A stretch of DNA of 64,000 nt. It comes from Fusobacterium varium (GTDB lineage Bacteria > Fusobacteriota > Fusobacteriia > Fusobacteriales > Fusobacteriaceae). The notes under the pieces were generated by a model. That model had not been told where the DNA came from, did no database searches, and saw only the letters and a list, made by a program, of their open reading frames with translations. The stretch spans positions 1 to 64,000 of the forward strand of contig AP017968.1 of assembly GCA_002356455.1 (NCBI GenBank). Reading direction: 5' to 3'. Below are positions 371 through 37,839 of this stretch, in pieces (the first letter of the stretch is position 1; each line of letters opens with the position of its first letter). Made by a program: the position numbers and the translations under genes.

Positions 371-2161
371 ATGAAAAAAGATGACTCTACAGATAATAAT
401 TTTGAAATTTTAGATAGTTTCAAGATCTCACAAAGCGGATCATTAGTAGAAGACATAAGAAATATTGAAATAAAACTAAATACAGTTCCTGATATAGAAG
501 TGAGAGAAGTAGTTATCAAAGAGACAGGAAACTTTTTAAATCTTAAAGAGAATATAATAAATATTCCTGTAGAGATGATTGTATTTCCTTTTTTTACTCC
601 ACAAAAACAAAATAAAAGAGTGAACTTTCAATATTCATTTGAAGATTTGGGAGTTACTATGTATTGTACTCTTGTAGCAAAAGATAATGCCGATAAAGTT
701 TTTCAGCCTTCAACATTTGAGGAAAAAATATATACATATTTAATATCAATGTATGAGATAAAAAAAGAAATAGAAGATTCAGATGAATATATAGAATTTG
801 AAATTTCTGATTTTATAGTGAGTTTTCTTGGAAATAAGATGAATAGGACTTATTATTCAAAAGTGGAGCAGGCTTTGAAAAATCTAAAAAATACAGAGTA
901 CCAATTTATAGTGTCCAATCATACAAAATTGGGAAAATATAAATTTGAAGATGAAGAATTTAAACTGCTTACTTATCAAAAACTAAAAAAAGGGAAAAAA
1001 ATATATTACAGAGTTACTTTGAATAAAAATATAAGACAGAAGATAAAAGATAAGAGATATATAAAATATAATTCCAAATCTCTTTTAGAAATACTTACAA
1101 AAGATCCAATTGCAGGAAGAATATATAAGTACATAAGTAAAATAAGATATGAAAGTATGGATGGAAGAATAAATCTTAGAACTCTTGCAGCTATAATTCC
1201 TCTAAAAACAGAGCAGGTTACAGAGAGAGTAAATAAGAATGGGGAAATAAAACAGTATATATTATGCAGAGTTAAGCAAGTACTGAAAAGAATAGAAAAA
1301 GCTTTTGATGTACTTGTAGAAATGGGATATATTATTCAGTATAATTCAGATTATGTAAAAGAAGAGGACAATTATTATATCAATTATATTTTTAACAAGG
1401 AAAAAGATGGAGAATGCCATGTATCTTCATTCCTTGAAAATAAAACAGGAAGAGATATGGGAAGAAAAAGACCAGCAGCTCTTGCAGCTAAGAATAACAT
1501 GGAAATAGAAGATGCTGAAGTAGTGGAATACAGCTCAGGAGAAAAAATATCTAAACCTGAAACTAAGCATAAAGAACCAGCAATAGAGTTTCCAGAAGGA
1601 ATAATGGAAAAGATGCAAAAGGCTAAAAGGAATATTTATGTACAGAGAGCATGGGATAGAAGAACTGATAATAAAATAAAGAAAATATGCAGAGAAGAGG
1701 GAGAAACAACAGCAAAAGAAGTGCTTTCTATTTTGTATAAAAACCTTAATGGAAATATAAAGACAACTCTTGTGCAGTATATTAATGGTATTCTTAAAAA
1801 TATTTCTGCAGATGAAAGCAGCAGTAATAAACAGAATCTTACTCTTTTCAATAATATTGTAAAAGAAAAAGGGTTAAAAAGTAAAAAGAAAATCAATCAG
1901 GCTAGAAGAAGTGTAAAGAAACCTGTTATAAGCAGTATAAAAGATATAATAACTGATACTGATATACCTAAAGATTTAATGGCAGAATATAATAATTATG
2001 ATGAGTTTGAAAAATTAAAGATAGAGGAAAAGGCATTGAAAATATGTTCACAGGAAGAAGGGATAGATGTCAATTTTCTTCTGACTATGAAATCAAAATC
2101 TAAGAATATATACCTAAATACTATAAAAAGGTATATTGAAAGAGTTATAAAAGATGAATAA
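371..2161 (+). CDS. Plasmid-type replication initiator protein (RPA/Rep_3-like) at the dnaA position
   Basis: This 596-residue protein probably binds repeats and opens an origin. Residues 65-135 begin with a VFPFF block and resemble the N-terminus of 'replication initiator protein A' families. A second winged-helix-like segment follows at about 235-325 (GRIYKYISKIRYES, then RVKQVLKRIEKAFDVL). The C-terminal part is basic, helical and poorly recognisable. It contains two similar modules of about 45 residues (around 435-480 and 550-596), each with a KICxxEEG-like start and an NxxTxxxYIxxxxK-like end. There is no AAA+ Walker motif, so it is not DnaA. The gene is the first of a yaaA-recF-DUF721-remB-gyrB-gyrA series, where Firmicutes carry dnaA-dnaN. 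Assignment to an initiator superfamily is fairly secure; its role as the chromosomal initiator is inference. Confidence 0.7.
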   Translation: MKKDDSTDNNFEILDSFKISQSGSLVEDIRNIEIKLNTVPDIEVREVVIKETGNFLNLKENIINIPVEMIVFPFFTPQKQNKRVNFQYSFEDLGVTMYCTLVAKDNADKVFQPSTFEEKIYTYLISMYEIKKEIEDSDEYIEFEISDFIVSFLGNKMNRTYYSKVEQALKNLKNTEYQFIVSNHTKLGKYKFEDEEFKLLTYQKLKKGKKIYYRVTLNKNIRQKIKDKRYIKYNSKSLLEILTKDPIAGRIYKYISKIRYESMDGRINLRTLAAIIPLKTEQVTERVNKNGEIKQYILCRVKQVLKRIEKAFDVLVEMGYIIQYNSDYVKEEDNYYINYIFNKEKDGECHVSSFLENKTGRDMGRKRPAALAAKNNMEIEDAEVVEYSSGEKISKPETKHKEPAIEFPEGIMEKMQKAKRNIYVQRAWDRRTDNKIKKICREEGETTAKEVLSILYKNLNGNIKTTLVQYINGILKNISADESSSNKQNLTLFNNIVKEKGLKSKKKINQARRSVKKPVISSIKDIITDTDIPKDLMAEYNNYDEFEKLKIEEKALKICSQEEGIDVNFLLTMKSKSKNIYLNTIKRYIERVIKDE

Positions 2162-2552: not shown

Positions 2553-2582
2553 AGAGATATTGATTGGCCTGAGGTGAAAGGG

Positions 2583-3710
2583 TTGGAAATACTAGAGATA
2601 AATTATGTGAATTTTAGAAATCTTCAAGATGGAAATGTAAAATTTTTTCCAAAACTTAATCTTTTTTATGGAAAAAATGGTCAAGGGAAGACAAGTCTGC
2701 TGGAAGCTTTGTATTTTAACTCTACAGGTAAAAGTTTCAGAACTACTAAAAGCAGTGAAATGATGAAATATGGGCATAAACGAACGGGGGTTTATGTAGT
2801 TTATAAAGATAACATAGGAGAAAAAACCCTTACTGTAAAATTTAATAATGAAGATAAAAAAGAATACAGCTACAATGGGAAGAGAGTACAGTATGATGAA
2901 TTTTATGGAAAACTCAATGTAGTTACATATATTCCTGAAGACATAGTACTGATAACAGGCTCTCCTTCTGTCAGAAGGAATTTTTTTGATGGAGAGATAG
3001 CCCAGACCAGCAGTGAATATTTTCAAGAGTTGAAAAATTTCAATAAAATTTTGAAAATAAGAAATAAATATCTTAAAGAAAAAAAGCATAAAGAACCAGA
3101 ATTTGCCATATATCAAGATGAGTTTGTAAAATATGGAGCAAAAGTAATAGAAAAAAGAATGGAATATGTAAAGAAAATATCTATTATACTTAATCTTAAT
3201 TACAGAAAACTTTTTGATGATAAGAAAGAACTGAGTCTTCAATATCAATGTCATCTTGGAAATACTAAAAAGATGAATCTAAAAGAAATAGAAGATGCTC
3301 TTAGGAAAAGAACAGAGGAAAGGCTGGGGCAGGAGTTAAGATATGGATTTTCACTTTCAGGACCACAGAAAGATGATTTTTTATTTTTTCTAAATTCTTA
3401 TGAAGCTAAGTCAACAGCTTCTCAGGGAGAGAAAAAATCAATTATTTTTTCACTGAAACTTTCAGAGATAGATATGGTATTGAGAGAAAAAAAAGAAAGT
3501 CCAATACTTATAATTGATGATATATCTTCTTATTTTGATTCTAATAGAAAAGATAGTATACTAAATTATCTGGAAAAGAGAAATATACAAGTGTTCATAA
3601 GTTCTACAGGTGAACTCGGAATAAATACTGAAGATTTCTATGTGGAAAAAGGTGAGATCAGTTATGATAGAGATAGAAAACATAGGGAGAATGATAGAAA
3701 GGGCAATTGA
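2583..3710 (+). CDS. recF: DNA replication and repair protein RecF
   Basis: RecF is an SMC-like ATPase that helps load RecA at gaps through RecOR. Visible motifs are the N-terminal NFRNLQ, a Walker A GKNGQGKTSLLEA near residue 33, an ABC-type signature ASQGEKKS near residue 280, and a Walker B ILIIDDISSYFD near residue 312. The length of about 375 is normal. I place the start at TTG 2583 (MEILEINYVNFRN), because GAGGTG at 2571-2576 is a well-spaced Shine-Dalgarno for it. The in-frame GTG at 2574 lies inside that motif and would add three residues. The 3' end overlaps the next gene by 47 bases. Confidence 0.93.
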   Translation: MEILEINYVNFRNLQDGNVKFFPKLNLFYGKNGQGKTSLLEALYFNSTGKSFRTTKSSEMMKYGHKRTGVYVVYKDNIGEKTLTVKFNNEDKKEYSYNGKRVQYDEFYGKLNVVTYIPEDIVLITGSPSVRRNFFDGEIAQTSSEYFQELKNFNKILKIRNKYLKEKKHKEPEFAIYQDEFVKYGAKVIEKRMEYVKKISIILNLNYRKLFDDKKELSLQYQCHLGNTKKMNLKEIEDALRKRTEERLGQELRYGFSLSGPQKDDFLFFLNSYEAKSTASQGEKKSIIFSLKLSEIDMVLREKKESPILIIDDISSYFDSNRKDSILNYLEKRNIQVFISSTGELGINTEDFYVEKGEISYDRDRKHRENDRKGN

Positions 3711-4206
3711 AAAAAGCAGAAGACTGAAAGAGGGGATTTTAAAAGCTCAATGGAAAGATGTAACAGAAAAGCTTTCTGAAAAAAGTCAAGTTCTCTACAT
3801 AAAAGAGGATGTACTTAATGTTGCTGTTGAAAACTCATCAATACTTCATTTTATGGAGCTGAATAAAAAAAAATATATAGCCAAAATTAATGAAATATTA
3901 AATGGAAATATAGTAAAGGATATATCATTTCGTATCTCTAAAATAAAAGAAAACGAGATATATAATGATGTGTATATGGATAATAATAATTTATCTGAAG
4001 ATGAAATTTCAGAAGATGAATATTTAGATATAGATTTTAATGAGATGAACATATTTCAAAGAATAGAGCATTTGAAAAAATCTGCTGAGAAAAAAGAACA
4101 GCGGTTATTAAAAGCTGGATATAAAAAATGTTCAGAGTGTGGGGCATATTTTAAAGGCAGTGAATACATGTGCAAGATATGTCGGGATAAAAAAGGCAGA
4201 GGATAA
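3664..4206 (+). CDS. DUF721/DciA-like protein with C-terminal zinc ribbon
   Basis: The first 90 residues match the DUF721 pattern (helical start, AQWKDV, then LNVAVENSSILHFMELN and a VKDISFRI strand). DciA of this family is the ancestral bacterial partner or loader of the replicative helicase DnaB. An acidic linker follows (about residues 105-130), then a C-terminal CSECG...CKIC zinc-ribbon-like knuckle, which is not part of the basic domain. I chose ATG 3664 because AAAGGTGAG lies seven bases upstream; a longer frame from 3640 has no such site. It overlaps recF and lies 3 bases before remB, so translation is probably coupled. A helicase-loading role is inferred from the family. Confidence 0.72.
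   Translation: MIEIENIGRMIERAIEKSRRLKEGILKAQWKDVTEKLSEKSQVLYIKEDVLNVAVENSSILHFMELNKKKYIAKINEILNGNIVKDISFRISKIKENEIYNDVYMDNNNLSEDEISEDEYLDIDFNEMNIFQRIEHLKKSAEKKEQRLLKAGYKKCSECGAYFKGSEYMCKICRDKKGRG
3970..3987 (-). repeat. 18-bp origin-type repeat, one mismatch
   Basis: The minus strand reads ATTATTATCCATATACAC, one base different from the copies at 46-63 and 2232-2249. It lies inside the DUF721 coding sequence. Confidence 0.65.
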
Positions 4207-4209
4207 AAT

Positions 4210-4479
4210 ATGTATACTTATTTAGAAAATGAACTTGTGATACCAGCAGAAAACATTATAATTATTATTGATTATATACATTTGAAAAATAACTGTAATA
4301 CTGAGTTTTATAATAATGAAGTAAAAAATAAAAAATTAATAAATTTAGCTCCAGAAGAGGAGAAAAGTGCAGTGATAACTAATAATGAAATATATTTTAC
4401 ATCATATGCATTATCAACTCTGATGAGCAGAGGGAATGAGTATCTTAGAATAAGCGGAGGTAGTAATAGTAATGAGTAG
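4210..4479 (+). CDS. remB: RemB-like DUF370 protein (YaaB)
   Basis: This 89-residue protein matches the extracellular-matrix-regulator RemB/YaaB family: a [12 protein letters not shown] start, an IIIIIDY strand, and the family-typical end [17 protein letters not shown]. In Bacillus the gene lies between recF and gyrB, exactly as here. RemA/RemB relatives are DNA-binding regulators; the role outside Bacillus is not established. The last eight bases overlap the gyrB start, so the two genes are translationally coupled. An 18-bp repeat is embedded in the codons for IIIIDYIH. Confidence 0.75.
4264..4281 (+). repeat. 18-bp origin-type repeat inside remB
   Basis: ATTATTGATTATATACAT is identical to the copies at 298-315 and 35979-35996, although here it must also encode protein. 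Confidence 0.75.
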
Positions 4480-6379
4480 TAATTATCAAGCGGAAAATAT
4501 TACGGTCCTTGAAGGACTGGAGGCTGTAAGAAAAAGGCCTGGAATGTATATAGGTACCACTTCTGAAAGAGGGCTTCATCATCTAGTATGGGAAATAGTA
4601 GATAATGCTGTAGACGAAGCTCTTGCAGGATATTGTGATAAAATTATAATAAATATACTTCCAGACAATATTATAGAAGTAATTGATAATGGAAGAGGAA
4701 TTCCAGTTGGTATCCATCCTAAGTACAATAAATCAGCTCTTGAAATAGTACTTACTGTACTTCATGCAGGAGGGAAATTTGAAAATGACAACTATAAAGT
4801 ATCTGGAGGTCTTCATGGAGTAGGGGTATCAGTAGTAAATGCTCTTTCATTATGGACAGATGTTACTGTAAAAACTGATGGAAAAATCTGGTACCAAAAA
4901 TATAACAGAGGTATACCAGAAGAAGATGTAAAAGAGATTGGCGTAACAACAGAACACGGAACAGCAGTAAGATTTAAGGCTGACCATGAAATATTTGAAA
5001 CACTTATTTATGATTATAATACTTTAAAAAATAGATTAAAAGAGCTTGCTTACTTAAATAAAGGCTTAGAAATCCATCTTAGTGACAGCAGAAAAGAGCC
5101 TTATAAAAAAGAAGAGTTTAAATTTGAAGGTGGTATAGTAGACTTTCTTAAAGAGATAACAGAAGAAACTGAAAAACTTATACCAGAACCAATATACATG
5201 TCTGGTGAAGTGGATAATGTAGCTGTAGATATTGCTTTTCTTTATACTGTGAATCAGGCAGAGGTTATATATTCTTTTGTAAATAATATTAACACTCATG
5301 AGGGAGGAACTCATGTAAGTGGATTCAGAACTGCTCTGACAAGAGTAATAAATGATGTAGGAAAAGCTCAAGGATATCTGAAAGAGAAGGATGGAAAACT
5401 TCAAGGGAATGATATTAGAGAGGGAGTTACTGCAATTGTTTCAGTGAAAGTGCCTCAGCCTCAGTTTGAGGGTCAGACTAAAACAAAACTTGGAAACTCT
5501 GAAGTTACAGGTATAGTATCAACTTTAGTTGGAACTAATCTGAAAATAGTATTAGAAGATAATCCTAATGATACAAAAATAATAATAGAAAAAATACTGA
5601 ATTCTAAAAAAGCCAGAGAAGCAGCTCAAAAAGCCAGAGAACTGGTACTTAGAAAGTCAGTTTTAGAAGTTGGTTCACTTCCTGGCAAACTTGCTGACTG
5701 TTCATCAAAAAATCCAGATGAATGCGAAATATATATAGTTGAGGGAGATTCAGCAGGAGGATCAGCAAAACAGGGAAGAGACAGATCACATCAGGCTATA
5801 CTTCCTTTGAGAGGTAAAATATTGAATGTTGAAAAAGCAGGACTTCATAAATCACTTGAAAATAATGAAGTAAGAGCGATGATAACAGCTTTTGGTACAA
5901 GTATTGGAGACAGCTTTAATATAGAAAAACTTAGATATGGAAAGATAATACTTATGACAGATGCCGATGTAGATGGTGCTCACATCAGAACATTGCTTCT
6001 TACTTTCATATATAGATTTATGGTAGATCTTATCTATAATGGAAATGTATATATCGCACAGCCGCCTCTATATAAAATAACTACTGGTAAGCAAATAAGA
6101 TATGCTTATACTGACAGAGAACTTAAAGAAATAACTGATGTTTTTGAAGGAGATGAAAAAAAATATACTCTTCAAAGATATAAAGGACTGGGAGAAATGA
6201 ATCCTGAACAGCTTTGGGATACAACTATGAACCCTGATACAAGAACACTTCTACAGGTAACTATAGATGATGCAAGGGCAGCAGATATGCTGTTTGATAA
6301 ATTGATGGGAGATAAAGTAGATCCTAGAAGAGAATTTATAGAAGAGAATGCAGTATATGTAAAAAATCTTGATATCTAA
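4472..6379 (+). CDS. gyrB: DNA gyrase subunit B
   Basis: This is the ATPase subunit of the A2B2 gyrase that introduces negative supercoils. The 635-residue length is standard. GHKL motifs are visible in order: [10 protein letters not shown] (about 40-50), DNGRGIPVG (about 74) and [15 protein letters not shown] (about 112). The TOPRIM domain has [15 protein letters not shown] (about 425) and [10 protein letters not shown] (about 500), which hold the acidic metal-binding residues. GyrA follows after a 112-base gap carrying an 18-bp repeat. Identification is certain. Confidence 0.98.
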
Positions 6380-6491: not shown

Positions 6492-8999
6492 ATGTCAAAT
6501 GTTAATAATAGATATATAGAAGACGAGATGAAAGAATCATATCTCGACTATTCCATGAGTGTAATTGTCAGCAGAGCACTTCCAGATGTAAGAGATGGAA
6601 TGAAGCCGGTTCACAGAAGAATACTTTTTGCTATGAGTGAACTTGGAATGACTTATGATAAAGCATATAAAAAATCTGCCAGAATCGTTGGAGAAGTCTT
6701 AGGTAAGTATCACCCACATGGAGACTCAGCAGTATATGGAACAATGGTAAGAATGGCTCAGGATTTCAACTACAGATATTTACTTGTGGATGGACATGGA
6801 AACTTCGGTTCGATAGATGGAGATTCGGCAGCAGCCATGAGATATACAGAAGCAAGGATGGCAAAAATCAGTAATGAACTTATAGATGACATAGACAAGA
6901 ATACTATTGATTTCAGAAAGAACTTTGATGATTCGTTAGATGAACCAACAGTTCTTCCAGCAAAACTGCCAAATCTGCTTCTAAATGGAGCAACAGGGAT
7001 AGCAGTAGGGATGGCTACAAATATTCCTCCTCATAATCTCGGAGAACTTGTAGATGGAATACTTGCTCTTATAGAAAATCCAGAACTTACTCCTTTGGAC
7101 CTTATGGAATATATAAAAGGACCTGACTTTCCTACTGGAGGAATAATTGATGGTCAAAAAGGTATCAGAGATGCCTATATGACTGGAAGAGGTAAAGTAA
7201 GAGTAAGAGGTAAAGTAGAGATAGAAGAACATAAAAGTGGAAAAGCTTCCATTATTATCAAAGAAATTCCATATCAATTGAATAAAGCTACCCTTATTGA
7301 AAGAATAGCTGATCTTGTAAAAGATAAGAGAGTAACTGGAATAACAGATTTGAGAGATGAGTCTGACAGACATGGTATCAGAGTAGTTATAGAGGTTAAA
7401 AAAGGTGAAGAGCCAGAACTTATACTAAATAAACTATATAAATATACAGAACTTCAAAATACATTTGGTATAATAATGCTGGCTCTTGTAAATAATGCTC
7501 CAAGAGTACTTAACCTTAAAGAAATACTTCATGAATATTTAAAGCATAGATTTGAAGTAGTAACTAGAAGAACTAAATTTGATCTGGATAAAGCTGAAAA
7601 AAGGGCTCACATATTACAAGGTTATAAAATTGCTCTTGATAATATTGATAGAATAATTGAAATTATCAGAGGATCATCAGATGGAAACCAGGCAAGAGAA
7701 CTTTTAATAGAAAAATATGCTTTCTCTGATGTTCAAGCCAGAGCTATACTGGATATGAAACTGCAAAGGCTTACAGGTTTGGAAAGAGGAAAAATCGATG
7801 CTGAACATGCTGAAATTGAAAAATATATAGCCGAATTAAGAGAAATTCTTTCTCATGATTCTAAGATATATGAAATAATCAAAGAGGAACTTCTTTATTT
7901 AAAAGAGAAATATAATGATAACAGAAGAACTCTTATTGAAAATGAAAGAATGGAAATACTTCCAGAAGATCTGATAAAAGATGAAAATGTAATACTTACT
8001 CTTACAAATAAAGGATATGTAAAGAGAATGGAAGTAAGTAAGTATAAGGCCCAAAAAAGAGGTGGAAAAGGAGTAGCAAGTCAAAATACTATAGAAGACG
8101 ATTTTGTTGAAAGTATAGAGTCTGCTTCTAATTTAGATACTCTTATGATATTTACAAATCAGGGAAGAGTATTTAATATAAAAGTTTATGAAATTCCAGA
8201 AACTTCTAAACAGTCAAGAGGAAAACTTATGAGTAACATCATCAGAACGAGGGAAGATGAGAAAATAAGAGCTGTTATTAAAACAAGAGATTTCTCTAAG
8301 GATAATGAAGTGGTATTTGTTACTAAAGAAGGACTTATTAAGAAAACTAATCTAGATGAATTTAAAAATATTAATAATTCTGGATTAAAAGCTATCAAAT
8401 TGAAGGAAGATGATGATATAATATATGTAGGACTAATAGAGAAGATTGATCAGGAGCAAGTATTCATTGCAACAAAACAAGGATATTCTATTAGATTCAA
8501 TAGTGACAATGTAAGACCTACAGGAAGAGATACTATGGGAGTTAAATCTATAACTCTGAGACCTGGGGATTCAATTGTGTCAGCACTTCTGATTAAAGAT
8601 GAAGGCGGAAGTATTCTTACAGTAACAGAAAATGGATATGGTAAGAGAACAAGAATAGATGAATATCCATTACAAGCCAGATCTGGTAAAGGAGTAATAA
8701 ATATAAGATGCAATGCAAAAACTGGAGCAGTTGTATCAGTACTTCCTGTAACTGAAGGAGAAGAATTAATGGCCATTACATCTTCTGGTATAGTTATCAG
8801 AATGCCTCTTGATACTATTGCGCTTTATGGAAGGGCTACTCAGGGAGTAATTATAATGAAAGTTGATGGAGCTGAAAAAGTAGTATCAATAACTAGAGTA
8901 CAGTCTGAAGAGGAAGAGGATGAAACATCAGAATCTAGTTCTGTAGAAACAGAAGATAATATAGAAGAAGCAGAAATAGTGGAAACAAAGGAAGACTAA
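6492..8999 (+). CDS. gyrA: DNA gyrase subunit A
   Basis: This is the DNA breakage-reunion subunit. The catalytic tyrosine is Y118 in AAMRYTEAR. The quinolone-resistance region reads [10 protein letters not shown] (74-83), with S79 and G83 at the positions equivalent to E. coli S83 and D87. The C-terminal pinwheel starts with the GyrA box QKRGGKGV (about 517-524), which supports true gyrase rather than topoisomerase IV. A glutamate-rich acidic tail ends the 835-residue chain. It is followed closely by the USP-like gene. Confidence 0.98.
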
Positions 9000-20793: not shown

Positions 20794-20812
20794 TTGTATA
20801 TAAGCAATAATA

Positions 20813-21305: not shown

Positions 21306-21681
21306 CAATATGATATGTATATAATCAAAAATAAAAAACTATAAAGTATAACTATAGAATAGAAAAATACTATATAAAGATGTATTTAAAATTTTTTAAT
21401 TAAATTTTATTGTAAATATAAAATAATTTTTTATCAAAAATAGAATTATATTATAGATTTAAAGATAATAATATGTTTTTTTCTTTTGAAAGAGCGAACT
21501 TTCCAATATATTTTTTAATTTTTCTTTCAGCATAAATGCAGAACTATTTGATATTTTTAAACTCTATAAATAAAAAATGAAACTAAAGATTAAAAAGTAA
21601 ATACTATTTTAATAATTTTCTTAATAAAGAAATTTTAAGATTTTATTTGCTCTTTATATTAGTTTCATTTTTTTATTATAA
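21306..21681. repeat. Gene-free gap with an 18-bp repeat and a long inverted repeat
   Basis: No gene is seen. At 21315-21332 the minus strand carries ATTTTTGATTATATACAT, one base off the repeat at 298-315. The arms TAAAAAATGAAACTAA (21571-21586) and TTAGTTTCATTTTTTTA (21659-21675) form an inverted repeat with partly complementary DNA inside. Because it lies just beyond the stop of the minus-strand MerR gene, it may serve as a transcription end or be a small mobile-repeat remnant. Confidence 0.5.
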
Positions 21682-29518: not shown

Positions 29519-29557
29519 AAATAACCCAGCTCCTAAATTATGGAACTGGGTTATTTT
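29519..29557. terminator. Bidirectional terminator between convergent genes
   Basis: AATAACCCAG (29520-29529) pairs perfectly with CTGGGTTATT (29546-29555), with T or A runs outside both arms. It serves the MerR gene on the plus strand and abuts the stop codon of the minus-strand RpiR gene. Confidence 0.85.
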
Positions 29558-30422
29558 AATATGTAGAAGAAGGATCTTCATCTTCATAGAGAAAACTCTG
29601 GTCCTTTTCATTTTGTTTGAAGTATTGAAAATATCTATTTCTATCCCCTTCAAAAAGTTTTAAAAGAATAACATTACATACTTCAGCATGAAGTATGAAA
29701 GAATTGAAGAAACTTGTATTGTCTGTTTCAACTGGGATAAATATTGAAGCATAAGATGCAATTTTAGTAAAAATATTATTTGTTATAACAACAGAAGGAA
29801 CTTTTTTAGCGTGAAGAAGCTCCATCATCTGTACTTCATCTTTTAGATATTTTGGTACACTGAAAAATATTACACAGTCATCTTTTGTTACATGGGCTAT
29901 TTTCTCAAATAGACCATATCCTCCCTCAGATATAGTTACAGCTTCAAGTCCGAGAACCATGCAATGCCATCCAAGCATTTCAGCAACAGCTCTGCTGCTT
30001 CCTACACCAATGACAAATATTTTTTTTGATGTCTGCATAAGTTTTACTACATTATCTATTTCTTCTAAATCAAGATCCATATAGAGTTTCTGCATATTCT
30101 TTATATCAGCATTTATCATTTTTTTTACACTGTTATTGTCCTCTCTGTCATTGTTCCAATTATCCAGCATTTTATCAATGACACTTTTTCTCGCTTCCAG
30201 TTCTTCTGCAAGATATTCTTTAAGTTCATTATATTTAGAAAATCCTATTTTTTTAGAAAATCTCAATACAGTTGCATCACTGACATTAAGTTCTTTTCCT
30301 AGTTCCAATGAAGTCATCATAATAACTTTTTTAGAGTTTTCACATATGTATTCTGCTATCTGTTTTTCAGCTTTAGTAAGATTATTATAATTCTTTCTAT
30401 ATAGCTTTGCAATTCCGGTCAT
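29556..30422 (-). CDS. RpiR/MurR-family transcriptional regulator
   Basis: The N-terminal HTH_6 domain reads LTKAEKQIAEYICENSKKVIMMTSLELGKELNVSDATVLRFSKKIGF. The C-terminal SIS sugar-phosphate-binding domain contains FVIGVGSSRAVAEMLGWHCMVLG (about 135-157) and DCVIFFSVPKYLKDE. Members sense phosphorylated sugars or amino sugars. The start at 30422 has GAGGT eight bases upstream; a frame reaching 30479 lacks such a site. As the last gene of the minus-strand nhaC-amidohydrolase-DMT series, it probably controls that series. Confidence 0.85.
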   Translation of the reverse strand: MTGIAKLYRKNYNNLTKAEKQIAEYICENSKKVIMMTSLELGKELNVSDATVLRFSKKIGFSKYNELKEYLAEELEARKSVIDKMLDNWNNDREDNNSVKKMINADIKNMQKLYMDLDLEEIDNVVKLMQTSKKIFVIGVGSSRAVAEMLGWHCMVLGLEAVTISEGGYGLFEKIAHVTKDDCVIFFSVPKYLKDEVQMMELLHAKKVPSVVITNNIFTKIASYASIFIPVETDNTSFFNSFILHAEVCNVILLKLFEGDRNRYFQYFKQNEKDQSFLYEDEDPSSTY

Positions 30423-30488
30423 AGATAATACCTCGCATTTCTTTTCTTTTATCATAAAATAATTTAAAGATAAAAGCAAGGAATATTT

Positions 30489-31331
30489 CTAGACATTCAT
30501 GCATATAAGAGCTGAAATGATGATACCTGTTCCTATATATTGACGCATTGTGAGCTTTTCTTTAAAGAAAAGAAAATTCACAAAATTAACTAAAAGTATG
30601 ACTGAAATACTGTATGCTGGGAATACCAGATAAGCAGGAAGTACAGCAACGGCTTTTAATTGTGCCAATGTAGTAATCTGATTAGGTATTCCTATAAAAA
30701 ATCCAATAAGTATTTCCTTCAGGCTGAGTTTTTTTATACTTTTTATACTTAATATAAGACTGAATATGAAAGAAAAAATAAATGTATAAAAAATAAAATG
30801 TCCCTGAAGATTTGAACTGCCGAAGTGGCCATATATTTTTGCCAGAGTGTCTACCATACCTCCAGCTAAAAATAAAGCTATAAGAAGAAAGGGAGAAACG
30901 CTGCTGCTGTTATCTTTTTTATCTCTTTTGTTGATGTAGTATATAGAAAAAATGGCCAGAATACATCCTATTATCTGCATTTGATTAGGGTACTCCTTAA
31001 AAAGTACAACAGATACAAGAATGGGGATAAGAAGCCCCAGTCTATTGTATGTAGTAGTGAGAGGGGCTCCATTTTTTTTCATATTTACTTGCATAAGATA
31101 GAGGCAGGCAATATATAATACAGCATTTACCACAGCAAGAAGAAGTGTATATATATAATCTCCATCAAAAGAGAATATGCTTTCCTTTCGAATGACAAAA
31201 TATGCTAATATACCACCAAAAAGATAATTAAAGGTATTTACATTGAAACGGTTGCTTTTTTCTTTTTCTGACAATCTTATGATGAAAGTCATAAATGTAT
31301 TTGATAAAACTGCTATGATTAAATACAGCAT
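30489..31331 (-). CDS. DMT-superfamily (EamA-like) transporter
   Basis: The 280-residue protein has ten predicted hydrophobic helices and two half-repeats, each ending in a conserved helix (VVLFKEYPNQMQIIGCILAIFSIYYI and NFLFFKEKLTMRQYIGTGIIISALI). This is typical of small drug/metabolite exporters or importers. It is 21 bases downstream of the amidohydrolase gene. The substrate is unknown and is probably linked to the amidohydrolase product. Confidence 0.8.
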   Translation of the reverse strand: MLYLIIAVLSNTFMTFIIRLSEKEKSNRFNVNTFNYLFGGILAYFVIRKESIFSFDGDYIYTLLLAVVNAVLYIACLYLMQVNMKKNGAPLTTTYNRLGLLIPILVSVVLFKEYPNQMQIIGCILAIFSIYYINKRDKKDNSSSVSPFLLIALFLAGGMVDTLAKIYGHFGSSNLQGHFIFYTFIFSFIFSLILSIKSIKKLSLKEILIGFFIGIPNQITTLAQLKAVAVLPAYLVFPAYSISVILLVNFVNFLFFKEKLTMRQYIGTGIIISALICMNV

Positions 31332-31352
31332 TCATTCACTTCCTCGACTTCT

Positions 31353-33023
31353 CTATCTTTGATAGATGATTTTTCCATCAAGCATAGTGAAATCAACTTT
31401 GATATTTTTTATCTCTTCATCTGGTACTTGAGAAAGATCTCTGTCTATAATTACAAGGTCTGCTAATTTATCAGCTTCTATACTTCCTTTGAATTTCTCT
31501 TCTCCATTAAGTACAGCACCATTATATGTCATCATTCTGAGAGCTTCTGCCTTAGTTATTTTTTCTTCATCTCCAAGAGAATATCCCCTAGAACCCTTTC
31601 TAGTTACAGCTGCATACATATTTATAAATGGATTCAGATTTGAACAAGGCATATCAGTAGTTAAAGAAACTATTATTCCATTATCTTTATAAGTCTTTAA
31701 TGGAGTAAATGATGTTTGCTTATCTCTAGGGAGCAGAGAATCATATCCATCTGCTTCTACATAGATGAAGCTGGCTTGTGCAGCTACCATTATTCCTACT
31801 TCGCTCATTTTTTTAAGAGTTTCCTCACTTGGATAATAGGCATGTATTATAGAGTGCTGATGTTTTCTAGGATTAGCTTTTACAGCTTTGTAGATAGCAT
31901 CTACAGCTTTATCTATGGCAACATCTCCCATTACATGGATACCAATATCCCAGCCAGAATCATGAGCCGATTTTATATATTCATCAAGTTTAGTGATATC
32001 AAGTCTTAATGGGAATTCTCTCAACGAATCTTCACCTTTGTAATTCCAAGATTTTAAAGCTGTCATTGATGTAAGTCCACCATCTATTGCCATTTTTAAT
32101 GAAGAATAACGTATCCAGTTATTTCCATAACCAGAAGAGAAATTATAATCTTCAAGAAGCTGGTCAAGTTCTTTTTCATTTTGCTGCAATGTAAATCCAT
32201 GCCAGTTAGGCATGAGATTTATTCTGCATTTAAGTTCATTTTTCTTTAATAAATCATGGTAGGCTTTACATACTCCAGAACTTACTCCTGGTTCTGTAAT
32301 ACTTGTAATTCCATATTTATTATATTCATTTATTGCAAGAGATATAGACTTTTCTAATACAGGAATAGAAGGCTCTCCTTCTCCTGCTCCAAAATCATCG
32401 CTTCCAAAAGGACCAGGCATAACTTTTCTAACTAAAAGAACAGCATTTCCATGAAGAACACCAGTAGGTTCTCCATTTTCATCTTTTTCTATATGTCCTT
32501 TTGGAGGATCAACAGTATCTTTAGTGATTCCAGCTAATTTTAACGCTTTAGAATTTACAGAGCAAGCTCCAAATATTCTTTCCAATACAACAGCATTATC
32601 AGGAGATGCAACATCTAAATCATAACGATTAGGGGCTCTGTTCTCCTCAAATTGAGATTCTATCCAGCTGCCTCCTTGTATCCATGTTCCCTCAGGAACT
32701 TCTTTTATTCTTTCTATAATCTTTTCCTGAAGCATTTTCATACTGTCAATACCAAAAAGGACAATTCCCTCAAGCATTAAACCAGTTTCCCAAGCATGAT
32801 TATGAGCATCATTGATACCAGGGATAAGGCTTCTTCCTTTTAAGTCTATCAGTACAGTATTTTCAGCTTTCATTGACAGTATTTCATCATTGCTTCCAAC
32901 TGCTGCTATTTTATTACCAGATACAGCTGCAGCTTCATAAACACTGTCTTTTTCATCTACTGTATGAACACTCCCGTTATAGAAGATATAATCTGGAAAA
33001 TATATTTTTGATTTATTCATCAT
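31353..33023 (-). CDS. Amidohydrolase, YtcJ-like (Amidohydro_3)
   Basis: This 556-residue metal-dependent hydrolase has an N-terminal barrel strand FYNGSVHTVDEKDSVYEAAAV, the metal site GINDAHNHAWETG (about 72), a later histidine in DIGIHVMGDVAID (about 363), SIIHAYYPS (about 391), and the closing TTDMPCSNLNPF (about 463). YtcJ-like enzymes cleave amide bonds such as N-substituted formamides. It overlaps the nhaC-type gene by four bases (ATGA), so the two are co-translated and the transporter may supply its substrate. Confidence 0.88.
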   Translation of the reverse strand: MMNKSKIYFPDYIFYNGSVHTVDEKDSVYEAAAVSGNKIAAVGSNDEILSMKAENTVLIDLKGRSLIPGINDAHNHAWETGLMLEGIVLFGIDSMKMLQEKIIERIKEVPEGTWIQGGSWIESQFEENRAPNRYDLDVASPDNAVVLERIFGACSVNSKALKLAGITKDTVDPPKGHIEKDENGEPTGVLHGNAVLLVRKVMPGPFGSDDFGAGEGEPSIPVLEKSISLAINEYNKYGITSITEPGVSSGVCKAYHDLLKKNELKCRINLMPNWHGFTLQQNEKELDQLLEDYNFSSGYGNNWIRYSSLKMAIDGGLTSMTALKSWNYKGEDSLREFPLRLDITKLDEYIKSAHDSGWDIGIHVMGDVAIDKAVDAIYKAVKANPRKHQHSIIHAYYPSEETLKKMSEVGIMVAAQASFIYVEADGYDSLLPRDKQTSFTPLKTYKDNGIIVSLTTDMPCSNLNPFINMYAAVTRKGSRGYSLGDEEKITKAEALRMMTYNGAVLNGEEKFKGSIEADKLADLVIIDRDLSQVPDEEIKNIKVDFTMLDGKIIYQR

Positions 33024-34567
33024 TGTATTCCTCCTAAAATTTTACCATTTCTTTTTTCAGCTATTTTAGAAAATATGAAAAGAGCTGCTACTATTAATAT
33101 TGCTGTAACTATAAGTCCTAGTATTGGAGAAATAAGTCCACCTACAAGGAAACCTACAATTGAAGATATTCCAACAGTCATACTGTAAGGAAGCTGTGTT
33201 TTTACATGTTCCACATGGTCAGAACCAGCTGCTGTAGATGCAAGAATAGTAGTGTCAGATATAGGAGAACAGTGATCTCCAAATACTCCCCCGCTTAAAG
33301 AAGCCCCTATCATAAGTTCCATTGGTACTCCAAATGTGTGAGCTATTGGCAGAGATATTGGCATGATTATAGCCCATACACCCCAAGAACTTCCAGTAGA
33401 GAAACCAACAAAAGCACCAACTACAAACAGGAATGCAGGCATAAGACCAGCAGCTATATTGTAATGTGCAACTATATTTATTAAATATCCTTTAAGGTCC
33501 ATAACCCCTGTCAATGAACCAATAGACCATGCTAATACCAATATGATTGGAATGTCAGAATTTAAAGCTACTCCTTTACAGAACATAGGAACAATGTCAG
33601 CATATTTAAATATTTTAGCCTTTGCACCCATTATTCCAGCAGCTATTGAAGCAACTAAAAATCCAGTAGTGATAGAAAGAGATATATTAGAATTAACAAA
33701 AGCTCCTCCTATACCATTTTCTCCAGCTTTTCCAGTCCACAATATCATAGCTATCAATGTAGCAAATAGTGCAAGAAGCGGGATAATAAAACTAGCCAGT
33801 GTTATGTTTGAATCTTTAAATAAAGTTTCTTCATCCAAATCATATTTTCCCATTGGATTATCCTTTTCACCTATAAGTTCACCAGTTTCAATTGCTCTTT
33901 TTTCAGCTTTATACATAGGCCCAATATCCAGATTAAATATGATGACAAAGAATAGAGCAAGCATACCGAACATTGCATAGAAATTATATGGTATAGCTTT
34001 CAAATACGTAGTCCAAGGATTGTCTGTTATACCCAGCAAAGCAAATTGTGTAGCTATAAGCCCGATTGCATAAGTGCTGTAACTTGTGATAGGAGAAAGA
34101 GTTGCAAAAGGACATCCCATAACATCACAAATATAAGCAAGTTTAACTCTAGATATTCTAAGTCTTTCAGTTATTGGTCTCATGATAGCACCAAGTGTAA
34201 GAGTAGGTTCTGTGAAAATGAAGGCAAATGCTGCAAAGTAAGCTGTAAGCTGGGCACCTTTTCTTGTTTTTACTCTCTTAGAAGCATAATCACCAAATGC
34301 TTTTGCTGCTCCAGAAACTTTTATCAAATATACAAATCCTCCACAAGACACAATAAGCATTATCATTCCTGCATTCCAAGTATTCCCAATAAGCGGAATG
34401 AAGAAATCTGAAATCATTTTTGGAAATCCGATAATTGGGTTCCAATCAGAGATAATGGTAGTTCCAATCCAAAGACCTAAAAAAAGTGAAAAAACCGTTT
34501 GTTTTGTCACCAGAGCCAGTATAATAGCTACCAGCGGTGGAATGACAGATAAAATTCCATACTCCAT
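33020..34567 (-). CDS. NhaC-family Na+/H+ antiporter-type transporter
   Basis: The 515-residue protein has about eleven to twelve hydrophobic helices. Family blocks are FTEPTLTLGAIMRPITERLRISRVKLAY (about 115) and GFSTGSSWGVWAIIMPISLPIAH (about 390), followed by GGVFGDHCSPISDTTILAS. NhaC-like proteins include Na+/H+ antiporters and Na+-linked malate/lactate or amino-acid exchangers. It is the first gene of the minus-strand operon and has an AGGAGGG ribosome site. Coupling to the amidohydrolase suggests an organic substrate. Confidence 0.87.
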   Translation of the reverse strand: MEYGILSVIPPLVAIILALVTKQTVFSLFLGLWIGTTIISDWNPIIGFPKMISDFFIPLIGNTWNAGMIMLIVSCGGFVYLIKVSGAAKAFGDYASKRVKTRKGAQLTAYFAAFAFIFTEPTLTLGAIMRPITERLRISRVKLAYICDVMGCPFATLSPITSYSTYAIGLIATQFALLGITDNPWTTYLKAIPYNFYAMFGMLALFFVIIFNLDIGPMYKAEKRAIETGELIGEKDNPMGKYDLDEETLFKDSNITLASFIIPLLALFATLIAMILWTGKAGENGIGGAFVNSNISLSITTGFLVASIAAGIMGAKAKIFKYADIVPMFCKGVALNSDIPIILVLAWSIGSLTGVMDLKGYLINIVAHYNIAAGLMPAFLFVVGAFVGFSTGSSWGVWAIIMPISLPIAHTFGVPMELMIGASLSGGVFGDHCSPISDTTILASTAAGSDHVEHVKTQLPYSMTVGISSIVGFLVGGLISPILGLIVTAILIVAALFIFSKIAEKRNGKILGGIQ

Positions 34568-34776
34568 AATTTTGCCCTCCTTGATTTAAGATAAAAGTTA
34601 TTAAATTCAACCCCATGTAGTCATTACTATATTTATAATTTAAAAATGTAGTAAAGTCAAGATAAATTTTTTTAAAACTTTGTAAAAAAAACATTTTAGA
34701 GAAATATAAGTTCTAAAAAAATAGAAGGAAAGAATATTTATAATATAAATGACAAGCAGAAATAATATATAAAAAA

Positions 34777-34805
34777 TTGAAAATATTTTATTAATCTGCT
34801 ACAAT
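34777..34805 (+). promoter_or_regulatory. Sigma70-type promoter for the leader ORF and GNAT gene
   Basis: TTGAAA (34777-34782) and TACAAT (34800-34805) have a 17-base spacer, 41 bases before the leader ATG. The rest of 34568-34845 is AT-rich and shows no gene. Confidence 0.6.
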
Positions 34806-34845
34806 TTAATAAAATAAAAAGTCGTAGAAAAAAGGGGGAGTTTTT

Positions 34846-34926
34846 ATGAAAATAAAAAAATTAAGAATAGAATTATATATATTTTTAGAAGAAACAGCAT
34901 TTTGTCAGGAGGAATTGAATGAATGA
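34846..34926 (+). CDS. 26-codon leader ORF ahead of the acetyltransferase
   Basis: The ATG follows a very strong AAAGGGGGAG site. The ORF encodes MKIKKLRIELYIFLEE and ten more residues, then stops at 34924-34926, overlapping the GNAT start by eight bases. The downstream ribosome site AGGAGG lies inside it. This geometry fits translational coupling or a regulatory leader peptide. It has no run of rare or single amino acids that would suggest attenuation. Confidence 0.45.
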   Translation: MKIKKLRIELYIFLEETAFCQEELNE

Positions 34927-35371
34927 ACAGTTAATCTGTTTAAAAGAAGTTAATGAAGAGAATTATGATGAATGTATAGCATTAGATATCAATGAGGAAC
35001 AGAGAGCTTTTGTTGCTCCAAATATCTATTCAATGGCCCAGGCATATATTTATAGAGATACAGTTAAATTATTTTGTATATATGCTGCTGATACTCTTGT
35101 AGGGTTCACGATGTTTAATCTGGAAAAAGAAAAAGATGAGTATTGGATATGCCGTTTTATGATGGATAAAAATTATCAGAGAATGGGGTATGGAAAGAAA
35201 GCTATGAAAGAAATAGTAGAATTTTTAAAAAAAGAGGGAATAAGAAATATAAAAATATCTTTTGAACCAGAAAATATACTGGCTATGAGATTATATTCTG
35301 CCTGTGGTTTTAGAGAAACAGGAGAAGTGGATGCAGATGGAGAAATTGTTATGGAATTTAAAATAAGGTAA
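34919..35371 (+). CDS. GNAT acetyltransferase, BltD/SpeG-like
   Basis: This 150-residue N-acetyltransferase carries the acetyl-CoA loop RMGYGKKAMKEIV (about 97) and a conserved ISFEPENILAMRLYSACGFRETG (about 119-141). The opening LKEVNEENYDECIAL and FVAPNIYSMAQAY resemble spermine/spermidine acetyltransferases such as BltD. Polyamine specificity is a guess from similarity. It is followed by a terminator. Confidence 0.8.
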   Translation: MNEQLICLKEVNEENYDECIALDINEEQRAFVAPNIYSMAQAYIYRDTVKLFCIYAADTLVGFTMFNLEKEKDEYWICRFMMDKNYQRMGYGKKAMKEIVEFLKKEGIRNIKISFEPENILAMRLYSACGFRETGEVDADGEIVMEFKIR

Positions 35372-35375
35372 TATG

Positions 35376-35420
35376 AAAAAGCTGGTATAAAAGATTTTTT
35401 CTTTATATCAGCTTTTTTTA
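35376..35420 (+). terminator. Rho-independent terminator
   Basis: AAAAAGCTG (35376-35384) pairs with CAGCTTTTT (35409-35417), with an inner TATAAA/TTTATA pairing. It separates the plus-strand GNAT gene from the convergent one and may act in both directions. Confidence 0.75.
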
Positions 35421-35425
35421 TGCAT

Positions 35426-35944
35426 TTATTTGTGCTTAGTTATTAGTTTTGGTAAATCTTTCCATATAAATACTGTTGACATAGCAGAAGTGTTATCAAA
35501 GTAATTTATAAAATCATTCAAGTATACAGCACCTAAATATTGATATATCTTTTCAGCTTTGTTGTTTCCTCTGAGAATAGATATAGTCATACTGTCATAA
35601 CCATTTTCCAGAGCAAATTCAGTAGTTTTTATAATAAGTGATTTTCCAACTCCTTTATTTTGAAATTCAGGTGATACATGAAGTGAATCTAAATAGAGGC
35701 ATTTTTTAATATGTTTATAGGGTTTGCTTGCAGCAAGAGATGTAATAGTTCCTGTGTCATCTAAATGAATAAAAATAACATTATTATTATTTTCTAGATA
35801 TTCAGTCCATTTTTTCTCTGCTTGTGCATATGTTAGAGAATTGAGATAATCACTTGGAAGAATATTTTTATATGTTCTTCTGCGGCTGTCTATATAGATT
35901 TTAGAAATAGTTACTATATCATTTTTATTAGCTTTTCTAATCAT
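35426..35944 (-). CDS. GNAT acetyltransferase (RimI-like)
   Basis: The protein has about 172 residues. It starts MIRKANKNDIVTISKIYIDSRR, has the acetyl-CoA motif VSPEFQNKGVGKSLIIK (about 92-108) and ends with SILRGNNKAEKIYQYLGAVY. ATG 35944 has AAAAGGAG close upstream; an upstream in-frame extension lacks one. The target is unknown. Confidence 0.82.
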   Translation of the reverse strand: MIRKANKNDIVTISKIYIDSRRRTYKNILPSDYLNSLTYAQAEKKWTEYLENNNNVIFIHLDDTGTITSLAASKPYKHIKKCLYLDSLHVSPEFQNKGVGKSLIIKTTEFALENGYDSMTISILRGNNKAEKIYQYLGAVYLNDFINYFDNTSAMSTVFIWKDLPKLITKHK

Positions 35945-35978
35945 TTCAACTCCTTTTTGGGTACATACCAACAAAATT

Positions 35979-35996
35979 ATTATTGATTATATACAT
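35979..35996 (+). repeat. 18-bp origin-type repeat far from the initiator gene
   Basis: ATTATTGATTATATACAT is identical to 298-315 and 4264-4281. It lies between the two minus-strand GNAT genes. Confidence 0.75.
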
Positions 35997-36010
35997 ATTA
36001 AAACAATATG

Positions 36011-36487
36011 TTATTTTAATATATATTTTTCCATGACATAGTTTGTAAGAAAAATTCCTTTTTTTTCTACCTGCTGTTCTTTTATTAATGAGTATCCTAT
36101 TTTTTCAAAGAAAGGTTTGGCAGTAGTTGAAGCTTCTGTTATTATTGTGCGTATACATATTTTCTCTGCATAGTTTTCAAGTTCTTTGACTATAGAAGAA
36201 GCAATTCCTCTAGACTGGTAATTTTTATGCACAAATAATCTATTGAGGTAGCCATTTTTTTCTATATCTCCAAAACCAACAATATCTCCATTTTTTTCAG
36301 CTATAACAGTAAAATTTTCAGAAAGAGATTTTTGCCATGTATTATATTTTTCTTCAATATAATTGTCAGGTGCCCATACAGAAAGCTGCTCATCATTATA
36401 GTCTTTTTTATTTACAGTTCTTACAGTATCATAGAAAAGTTTTAATAATTTAAGGCAGTCATCAGATTTATATTTTCTTAATATCAT
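36011..36487 (-). CDS. GNAT acetyltransferase (YafP-like)
   Basis: This 158-residue protein has MILRKYKSDDCLKLLKLFYDTVR, SVWAPDNY, GFGDIEKNGYLNRLFVHKNYQSRGIASSIVKELE (acetyl-CoA loop at about 95-105) and ASTTAKPFFEKIGY. This layout is close to the E. coli YafP type. The start has AAGGGGTG upstream. The roughly 250 bases beyond its 5' end (36488-36738) contain no gene I can support. Confidence 0.8.
   Translation of the reverse strand: MILRKYKSDDCLKLLKLFYDTVRTVNKKDYNDEQLSVWAPDNYIEEKYNTWQKSLSENFTVIAEKNGDIVGFGDIEKNGYLNRLFVHKNYQSRGIASSIVKELENYAEKICIRTIITEASTTAKPFFEKIGYSLIKEQQVEKKGIFLTNYVMEKYILK
36141..36158 (+). repeat. 18-bp origin-type repeat variant
   Basis: ATTATTGTGCGTATACAT keeps both conserved ends and differs from the copy at 268-285 at two central bases. 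It lies inside the YafP-like gene, 162 bases from the copy at 35979. Confidence 0.5.
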
Positions 36488-36738
36488 AACGTCACCCCTT
36501 ATAAAATATTATATAGCTAAATCTGAAAGAAAACAATAAAATAAAAGATATATATTTTTTAAAGAGCAGCAGAGAAAAAATATGGAGTATAGTTTAAAAT
36601 ATAGAAATTTAATAAACTTGCTTTATAAAAAGCTATATATATTTTAAAGTATATTGAATGTTATATATAAATTAACTTTTTATATTGAAAATACTATAAA
36701 TAAGAACAAGAGAGTGAAATAATCATCTTCTTTTTATG

Positions 36739-37839
36739 TTAATCTGTTTTTATATCATCTTCTTTTATCTTTTCTCTAAAAACCTCTATTGATGAAAGAT
36801 CATTCTTATTGTATGTTATCTTCATTGAAATATCTTTTCCATCACATACAGTTGATTCTCCATCTTTTAAAGAATATATTTTAATAAGAAATTTTAAATT
36901 AGATGGATACTGACTTTCTTTTTGTGCTATCTTCATTACTTCCATATGAAGTTCAAAAAGTGTCTTAAATTTCTTTTTAACAGTAAGATAAGCTTTTTTT
37001 ACAGGAGTATTTTTTAATAAAAGCTGTTCTAAATAGATATCAAAACTTCCTGTAAAATTCTTCAAAGCATAATCAGCATTGGTTCTGACATATTCTTCTC
37101 CATGTTCAGCTAAAGCTTTTAATACAATGGAGTATATCTCAGAGAAATTTTTTACCTCTTTTCCTATCTTTATCATAATATCATTTATTATAGCTGTATT
37201 GCTATTTTCAACTATCTGTTTTTCAAGAGTTATACCTAATATTTTTGCACTTTTATAATCACCGCTTTTATTTTTAGTATATAAAAGCGGAAGCTGTCCA
37301 TTATCTTCGAGATCTTTCAATACTGGCATAAGCAGATTTTTTTCAATATCATAATATCTCTTATATGAGTCTTTTATTTCAAGAAGATGTCTTAAAGTTT
37401 CTATAGTAATGTATACACTGCTTTCAGGAGATTTTTTTACATACTGATAAAGACGATATGAGAATTTTTCTTTAAATGTAAGCACTTTATTAATTCCAAG
37501 TTTTTCATAATTAGTTCCTTTTTTAAAAGAACTTGCTATTTCGTCAGAAAATATCAAAGTGATGTCATTATCAGATATATAAAAAGATTGAAGTATACTT
37601 AAATAAGACAGATACTTAGAGCTGTCTGAGGAAAGAATGATGTATTTATTCATAAAAGAATTAAGAAATTTTATTCCCTCTTCTTGAGTTCCAAAATCAA
37701 GATATTTTAAAAATTCTTTAAAGAGAAGAGTTACATTTTTATTTTTTACTGATAAAGTTTTGATGAGATTTCTCTCTTTTTTATTGAGATGTTTTGAAAA
37801 TTCTACTTGAATATCTTTTTGAAGTATATCAAAATTCAT
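36739..37839 (-). CDS. Second Rep_3-like replication-initiator-type protein
   Basis: This 366-residue protein is not a known enzyme. Residues about 115-185 (VLTFKEKFSYRLYQYVKK, then YITIETLRHLLEI, KRYYDIEKNLLMPVLKDLED) match the second winged helix of Rep_3 plasmid initiators, where the RLY, LR-LL and F-KRNVL-PA blocks are typical. The N-terminal 110 residues are less clear, and the C-terminal part is helical and basic. The start has AAGGAGA. It could be a relic of an integrated plasmid, a phage-type initiator or a chromosomal regulator of replication. No par, mob or relaxase gene is nearby. Confidence 0.55.
   Translation of the reverse strand: MNFDILQKDIQVEFSKHLNKKERNLIKTLSVKNKNVTLLFKEFLKYLDFGTQEEGIKFLNSFMNKYIILSSDSSKYLSYLSILQSFYISDNDITLIFSDEIASSFKKGTNYEKLGINKVLTFKEKFSYRLYQYVKKSPESSVYITIETLRHLLEIKDSYKRYYDIEKNLLMPVLKDLEDNGQLPLLYTKNKSGDYKSAKILGITLEKQIVENSNTAIINDIMIKIGKEVKNFSEIYSIVLKALAEHGEEYVRTNADYALKNFTGSFDIYLEQLLLKNTPVKKAYLTVKKKFKTLFELHMEVMKIAQKESQYPSNLKFLIKIYSLKDGESTVCDGKDISMKITYNKNDLSSIEVFREKIKEDDIKTD

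Follow-up and report, generated by a model that had tools for sequence, protein, structure and literature searches.

What starts replication of the main chromosome in a bacterium whose dnaA slot is occupied by another gene? The question is raised by the first 64 kb (the window, which means this whole stretch) of the 3.965-Mb contig C1 of Fusobacterium varium, a genome (G000) of 4.12 Mb in three contigs. An open reading frame at 371-2161, with an ATG start and a product of 596 residues, is found there at the head of a conserved origin neighbourhood; gene and product are here called rep and Rep. The initial annotation had proposed that a captured plasmid-type initiator starts, or helps start, chromosome replication in this lineage. 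By taking into account the comparison with other genomes of the phylum, it is highly probable that a plasmid initiator replaced DnaA in place in the ancestor of the Fusobacteriaceae and now starts the main chromosome. Only slightly less probable is the broader proposal that this free-living family lost DnaA, and that its main chromosome is run by an in-place, plasmid-derived, non-AAA+ initiator with its own boxes and distal titration sites, the DnaA-oriC system having been replaced and not bypassed. Both proposals build on established observations, namely the absence of DnaA, the gene swap, the skew switch, the fold, the conserved and clustered boxes, and the plasmid homologues. Of the original claim, the capture is borne out by the in-place swap, by the boxes and by the plasmid homologues, and the part in which Rep starts replication keeps its conditional form.

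A search of the whole genome for dnaA, as the initial annotation advised, yielded none in F. varium nor in any of the 61 Fusobacteriaceae genomes. With the full-length DnaA profile (TIGR00362) nothing above 65 bits was obtained across these 61 genomes, and in F. varium the top match, of 37.6 bits, was to ATPases of approximately 270 residues, with no match to DnaA domain IV. True DnaA (full-length TIGR00362, 336-556 bits) was instead present in 36 of the 37 phylum genomes outside the family, the only negative one being an 82%-complete draft. Domain IV (PF08299) gave a complete separation, 0/61 in the family versus 36/37 in the other phylum genomes, and several of the family genomes searched consist of a single contig and are 99-100% complete. 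The weak DnaA-profile matches of 30-65 bits were considered as a possible hidden DnaA and discarded, being mostly to ATPases of about 260-280 residues that lack domain IV and are patchy between species.

The gene that is missing has been replaced at the same site. In sister families, where the loci reach far enough, rpmH diverges from dnaA-yaaA, usually followed by recF; in Fusobacteriaceae rpmH diverges from rep, which in many genomes is followed by yaaA-recF-dciA-(remB)-gyrB. The gene order of the window, yaaA-recF-DUF721-remB-gyrB-gyrA behind an initiator-like gene, was confirmed by the open reading frames and by profiles, and is as follows.

1 to 370, no strand: window portion of the rpmH-rep gap, the predicted origin; the other 477 bp are at the end of contig C1
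371 to 2161, + strand: rep, predicted plasmid-type chromosome initiator, from profiles, fold and substitution rates
2346 to 2552, + strand: yaaA (S4_2), the same gene that comes after dnaA in sister families
2574 to 3710, + strand: recF
3640 to 4206, + strand: dciA (DUF721, PF05258, above its cut-off), helicase operator/loader and presumed partner of Rep in DnaB loading
4210 to 4479, + strand: RemA-like gene (remB)
4472 to 6379, + strand: gyrB
6492 to 8999, + strand: gyrA

In F. varium rpmH-rnpA-yidD-yidC-jag lie at the far end of C1, so that, if the contig is circular, rpmH and the start of rep are separated by a gap of 847 bp with 18% G+C; in G026 and others the rpmH-gap-rep arrangement is contiguous on single contigs. 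Some Fusobacterium and Cetobacterium genomes keep rpmH-rep with the yaaA-recF block outside the stretch that was read. Matches to Rep were found in 59 of the 61 family genomes and in all 14 genera, the main copies being mostly 53-97% identical, and a second, profile-based search of five genomes with poor coverage left only one (G039) without a match. The initial annotation had also pointed to the missing dnaN. This gene is indeed absent from the locus (two copies are distant from the origin, at C1:2204885-2205964 and 3019132-3020244), and dnaN paralogues number two in most genomes of the family and one in most sister-family genomes. However, dnaN is also far from dnaA in the sister families that have DnaA, so that its absence is uninformative and was ruled out as part of the swap, reflecting instead an older rearrangement common to those families.

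The GC skew changes sign, from negative to positive, within approximately 2 kb of the start of rep in G000, G026, G016 and G038 (three genera), which is where a sign change had been looked for, near position 1. In F. varium the last 2 kb of contig C1 have a skew of −0.19 and its first 2 kb one of +0.25, and the sampled values are mostly of one sign for approximately 1.8-1.95 Mb on each side of rep, as expected for a single bidirectional origin. No dnaA-oriC was found elsewhere.

Which kind of protein is Rep? Among Pfam families the match is to RPA (PF10134), with 24.4 bits by hmmscan and 27.2 bits in the genome search for a cut-off of 27, and it covers only residues 70-258. The cut-off is exceeded in 28 of the 61 family genomes; among relatives of Rep, 34 of 46 match RPA (best E-value 9e-8) and 5 of 46 are weakly matched by the TrfA profile. 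By these profile matches RPA can be taken as the nearest sequence family of Rep. No AAA+ family was matched by hmmscan against Pfam, and a search of G000 with Rep3_N (Rep_3, PF01051) found the small contigs C2 and C3 and one broken copy, but not rep (C1:371-2158). NCBIfam and PHROGs searches gave nothing decisive, and among solved structures the sequence matched only unrelated winged-helix proteins, weakly. A structure model indicates tandem winged helices at approximately 109-350 and a helical C-terminal part at approximately 405-596. When the model was compared with known structures by VIA-align, the best 27 rows were all RepE, RctB or Pi, RepE co-crystals included (Z 7.8-10.9), and residues 107-350 aligned to RctB, RepE and Pi with Z 9.7-10.9 and root-mean-square deviations of 4.3-5.4, the best unrelated row reaching 7.6. 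A fold search with the C-terminal part (residues 400-596; predicted local distance difference test score, pLDDT, 72) returned nothing above Z 5.5. As modelled, Rep is a tandem winged-helix, plasmid-type initiator and not an AAA+ protein, and the homology to initiators that the initial annotation asked for is present both in the RPA and TrfA profiles and in the RepE, RctB and Pi folds. The protein is under strong purifying selection, with a ratio of non-synonymous to synonymous substitution rates (dN/dS) of 0.02-0.03 versus close relatives and of 0.04 versus G025.

The gap upstream of rep contains a predicted 19-bp element, the Rep box, with the consensus TATTATTG-N3-ATATACAT. Allowing up to 4 mismatches, the F. 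varium gap has 8 boxes in the forward and 0 in the reverse orientation (shuffle mean 1.24); with up to 3 mismatches 7 boxes remain, all in a single orientation as direct repeats. Those listed for the window portion are:

45 to 63, + strand: Rep box TATTATTATCCATATACAT, 1 mismatch to TATTATTGNNNATATACAT
115 to 133, + strand: Rep box TATTATTGAGTATATACAA, 1 mismatch
267 to 285, + strand: Rep box TATTATTGTGGATATACAT, exact
297 to 315, + strand: Rep box TATTATTGATTATATACAT, exact, beside the rep start (55 bp before)

An excess of boxes over shuffles was found in nearly every genus, and over 20 loci 190 boxes were counted versus 4 for the reversed pattern. When Fusobacterium species are compared, identity is 78-99% in the box core, 33-90% in the 3-bp spacers and 42-84% in the remainder of the gap, the core being above this remainder by 15-39 points in every pairwise comparison, and the seven box positions are mostly in register. 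With up to 2 mismatches, each of 39 family gap sequences (which include two genomes entered twice) has 1-10 Rep boxes, and the 8 sister-family gaps have none; conversely, TTATCCACA DnaA boxes number 14 in these 8 gaps and 0 in the 39.

Boxes are also found outside the gap, some at conserved places and some far from rep.

2231 to 2249, + strand: Rep box between rep and yaaA, at the same place in several other species
3970 to 3988, − strand: Rep box inside dciA, 2 mismatches, at the same place in G026 and L136
4263 to 4281, + strand: Rep box inside the RemA-like gene, exact, kept in G026, L136 and L137
6384 to 6402, − strand: inverted Rep box in the gyrB-gyrA interval, conserved in several genera
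20794 to 20812, − strand: distal Rep box, 1 mismatch
21315 to 21333, − strand: distal Rep box, 1 mismatch
35978 to 35996, + strand: distal Rep box, exact; in G026 two boxes lie at a similar distance
36140 to 36158, + strand: distal Rep box, exact to TATTATTGNNNRTATACAT

With up to 1 mismatch, 27 boxes are found genome-wide in G000 and 28 in G026 (3 and 2, respectively, for the reversed pattern), and none in G068, a sister-family genome that has DnaA. The boxes cluster within approximately 60 kb of the origin: 17 of the 27 in G000 and 20 of the 28 in G026 lie within 50 kb, and when the first kilobase on each side is excluded 12 of the 22 boxes of G000 are still within 100 kb (p approx. 1e-10).

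A second, unrelated plasmid-type gene (36739-37839, − strand), 37 kb from the origin, adjoins two Rep boxes and matches Rep3_C (the WH2 domain of Rep_3) with 32.5 bits. Close copies are present in G026-G028, and it is patchy elsewhere. As a candidate initiator it was ruled out on account of this patchiness and of its position away from the skew switch.

Plasmid records with Rep homologues come only from Fusobacteriota, and comprise the 297-kb plasmid of Haliovirga abyssi, the 962- and 124-kb plasmids of Ilyobacter polytropus and two plasmids of strain ZRK30; one F. vincentii record of the plasmid collection is in fact chromosome-sized. On plasmids, the relatives of Rep sit at the record starts. 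Phage collections contained no relative, and viral contigs one partial. Haliovirga (G062) has DnaA on the chromosome and Rep on the plasmid, the arrangement that would be expected of the ancestral state. The 35 chromosomal copies of Rep form one clade (support 100/97); with midpoint rooting the copy of Haliovirga and an additional one of G040 come next, on long branches for which the root is not established. The loci of extrachromosomal homologues are nearly devoid of Rep boxes, with 1 in 11 loci, some having different repeats of their own.

Further initiator genes were met in the same genomes. Ilyobacter- and g14-type genomes (L158-L166) have diverged Rep paralogues of 32-35% identity on large second replicons, several on contigs of 0.12-1.15 Mb, with repeats that differ (about TATAATTTANAAGGGATGATAA). 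Because the diverged paralogues carry different repeats, main and second replicons seem to be run by a single initiator family that uses a separate box code for each. C2 and C3, the small contigs of F. varium, carry Rep_3 initiators instead, and a Rep_3 remnant interrupted by two in-frame stops (C1:197838-198170) on its chromosome is probably a decayed integrated plasmid. RPA-profile proteins with frames of approximately 590-690 residues are found on other contigs of G002, G003, G014 and G035 (e.g. G002:C9:314-913); they outscore the chromosomal Rep on RPA and are probably other RPA plasmids in relatives.

With these observations the following sequence of events may be proposed. In the ancestor of the Fusobacteriaceae a plasmid initiator gene would have taken the dnaA slot between rpmH and yaaA, and Rep boxes the place of the DnaA boxes in the gap. 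From the comparisons we infer Rep-box binding, unwinding, helicase loading and control by distal boxes. Rep would bind the 19-bp boxes of the gap, with one winged helix per half-site (TATTATTG and ATATACAT are approximately one helical turn apart), and would open the gap DNA of approximately 18% G+C. The opened DNA would be handed to DnaB, which is present and intact, with the help of DciA, and the main chromosome would thereby have a single bidirectional origin. DciA is a known helicase operator (PMC5109545), and TrfA-44 in Pseudomonas is an example of a plasmid Rep that loads the host helicase itself (PMC4980987). The box 55 bp before the start of rep suggests self-repression, and those within approximately 60 kb of the origin suggest control by titration or handcuffing, as with RctB or datA.

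Several points weigh against such a role of Rep and need to be taken into account. The evidence for Rep as the initiator is comparative throughout. The AlphaFold model has a mean pLDDT of 58, with moderate confidence at approximately 115-345, and Foldseek with the full model gave no significant E-values. The boxes were counted in the same gaps that had supplied their consensus, which is why controls with the reversed pattern, with sister families and with distal sites were used, and the spacing of 30-231 bp is not the approximately 22-bp tandem of classic iteron arrays. The box excess is small at the Ilyobacter-type loci L039 and L042, where rpmH is not within the 1.5 kb read, and a few loci (L149, L153) have only one or two good boxes. 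The skew was sampled from 20-kb stretches, approximately one-tenth of the chromosome. Finally, G039 (a draft, 93% complete) has neither DnaA nor Rep, and G045 lacks DnaA and has Rep only as a weak partial match; both gaps are probably due to missing sequence.

Among other explanations, the origin might lie here but owe its firing to a different DnaA-independent mechanism, unknown or RNA-primed, with Rep, a plasmid gene since domesticated, confined to the regulation of transcription or of origin firing. DnaA-independent replication with an unknown initiator does exist in cyanobacteria, according to a 2020 paper (PMC7198777), and the intergenic boxes (2231, 6384) might act as operators. However, Rep is family-wide, under strong purifying selection and in the exact slot of dnaA, its boxes replace DnaA boxes in the same gap, and its relatives sit at plasmid record starts, so that this explanation is considered unlikely. 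That a true DnaA is present, too divergent or unassembled to be detected, is more improbable still: the 30-65-bit matches that would speak for it are mostly to the short, patchy ATPases without domain IV, this domain is missing in all 61 genomes, several of them single-contig and complete to 99% or more, the control genomes being positive, and Rep itself is modelled as tandem winged helices and not as AAA+. As the window's first base is also that of its contig, a position at which artefacts can arise, one might suspect an assembly artefact, or a plasmid that integrated recently in this strain. This least credible explanation is already refuted by the presence of Rep in all 14 genera, with rpmH beside it in most of those read, on single contigs, and with the chromosomal copies forming one clade.

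The replacement of DnaA by Rep has partial counterparts among known systems. RctB, acting at ori2 of Vibrio chromosome 2, has a similar size (658 versus 596 residues), a plasmid-type tandem winged-helix core (Z 10.7) and a chromosome-sized replicon; no sequence similarity to Rep was shown, the likeness being by fold. Distal sites in a 74-kb stretch titrate RctB (PMC6090056). However, the replicon of RctB is a secondary chromosome that coexists with a DnaA-driven one, whereas Rep is on the main chromosome and DnaA is gone. RepE of F and Pi of R6K share the two-winged-helix fold, and the iteron plasmids of RepE, Pi and TrfA have, like the rep locus, short directly repeated boxes by the gene; Rep differs in the extra C-terminal helical part of approximately 190 residues and in boxes that are spaced, not tandem. 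Moreover, iteron plasmids usually also use DnaA (PMC4980987), which the Fusobacteriaceae lack, and RPA proteins are known as plasmid proteins, whereas Rep is chromosomal. The 2020 paper (PMC7198777) describes dnaA-less cyanobacteria that are likewise free-living, and a dnaA deletion of S. elongatus with an integrated plasmid in which the origin shifted to that of the plasmid. For the dnaA-negative cyanobacteria its accessible text mentions no replacement initiator, and most cyanobacterial genomes have irregular skews, unlike the Fusobacteriaceae with a replacement in dnaA's own slot and a sharp skew switch.

A 2007 genome paper on a F. nucleatum subspecies labelled the gene as putative dnaA. 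In the open-access literature no report was found of this family lacking dnaA or using a plasmid-type initiator, an earlier notice in subscription papers or preprints being possible, nor any transposon-sequencing (Tn-seq) paper bearing on the essentiality of rep. The kind of protein is known, but no earlier description seems to exist of one that serves a whole family as sole initiator of the main chromosome. According to a 2026 survey, the origin of the largest replicon depends on DnaA almost without exception, and some intracellular symbionts may lack dnaA (PMC13342612); the 2020 paper notes that no dnaA-less free-living species had been reported outside cyanobacteria (PMC7198777). The Fusobacteriaceae, with human oral and gut bacteria among them, would run counter to both statements and would offer a natural, old case of initiator replacement, in which the timing of initiation without the ATP/ADP switch of DnaA, and the control of a main chromosome by plasmid-style titration or handcuffing, would become testable. 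Origin and chromosome finders based on dnaA misjudge Fusobacteriaceae, and inhibitors directed to DnaA should not act on them.

Farther along the window, the 29556-37839 stretch is a mostly minus-strand run with reversed or weak skew, comprising a regulator, transporters, an amidohydrolase-like gene and acetyltransferases, and is probably an insertion or an inversion.
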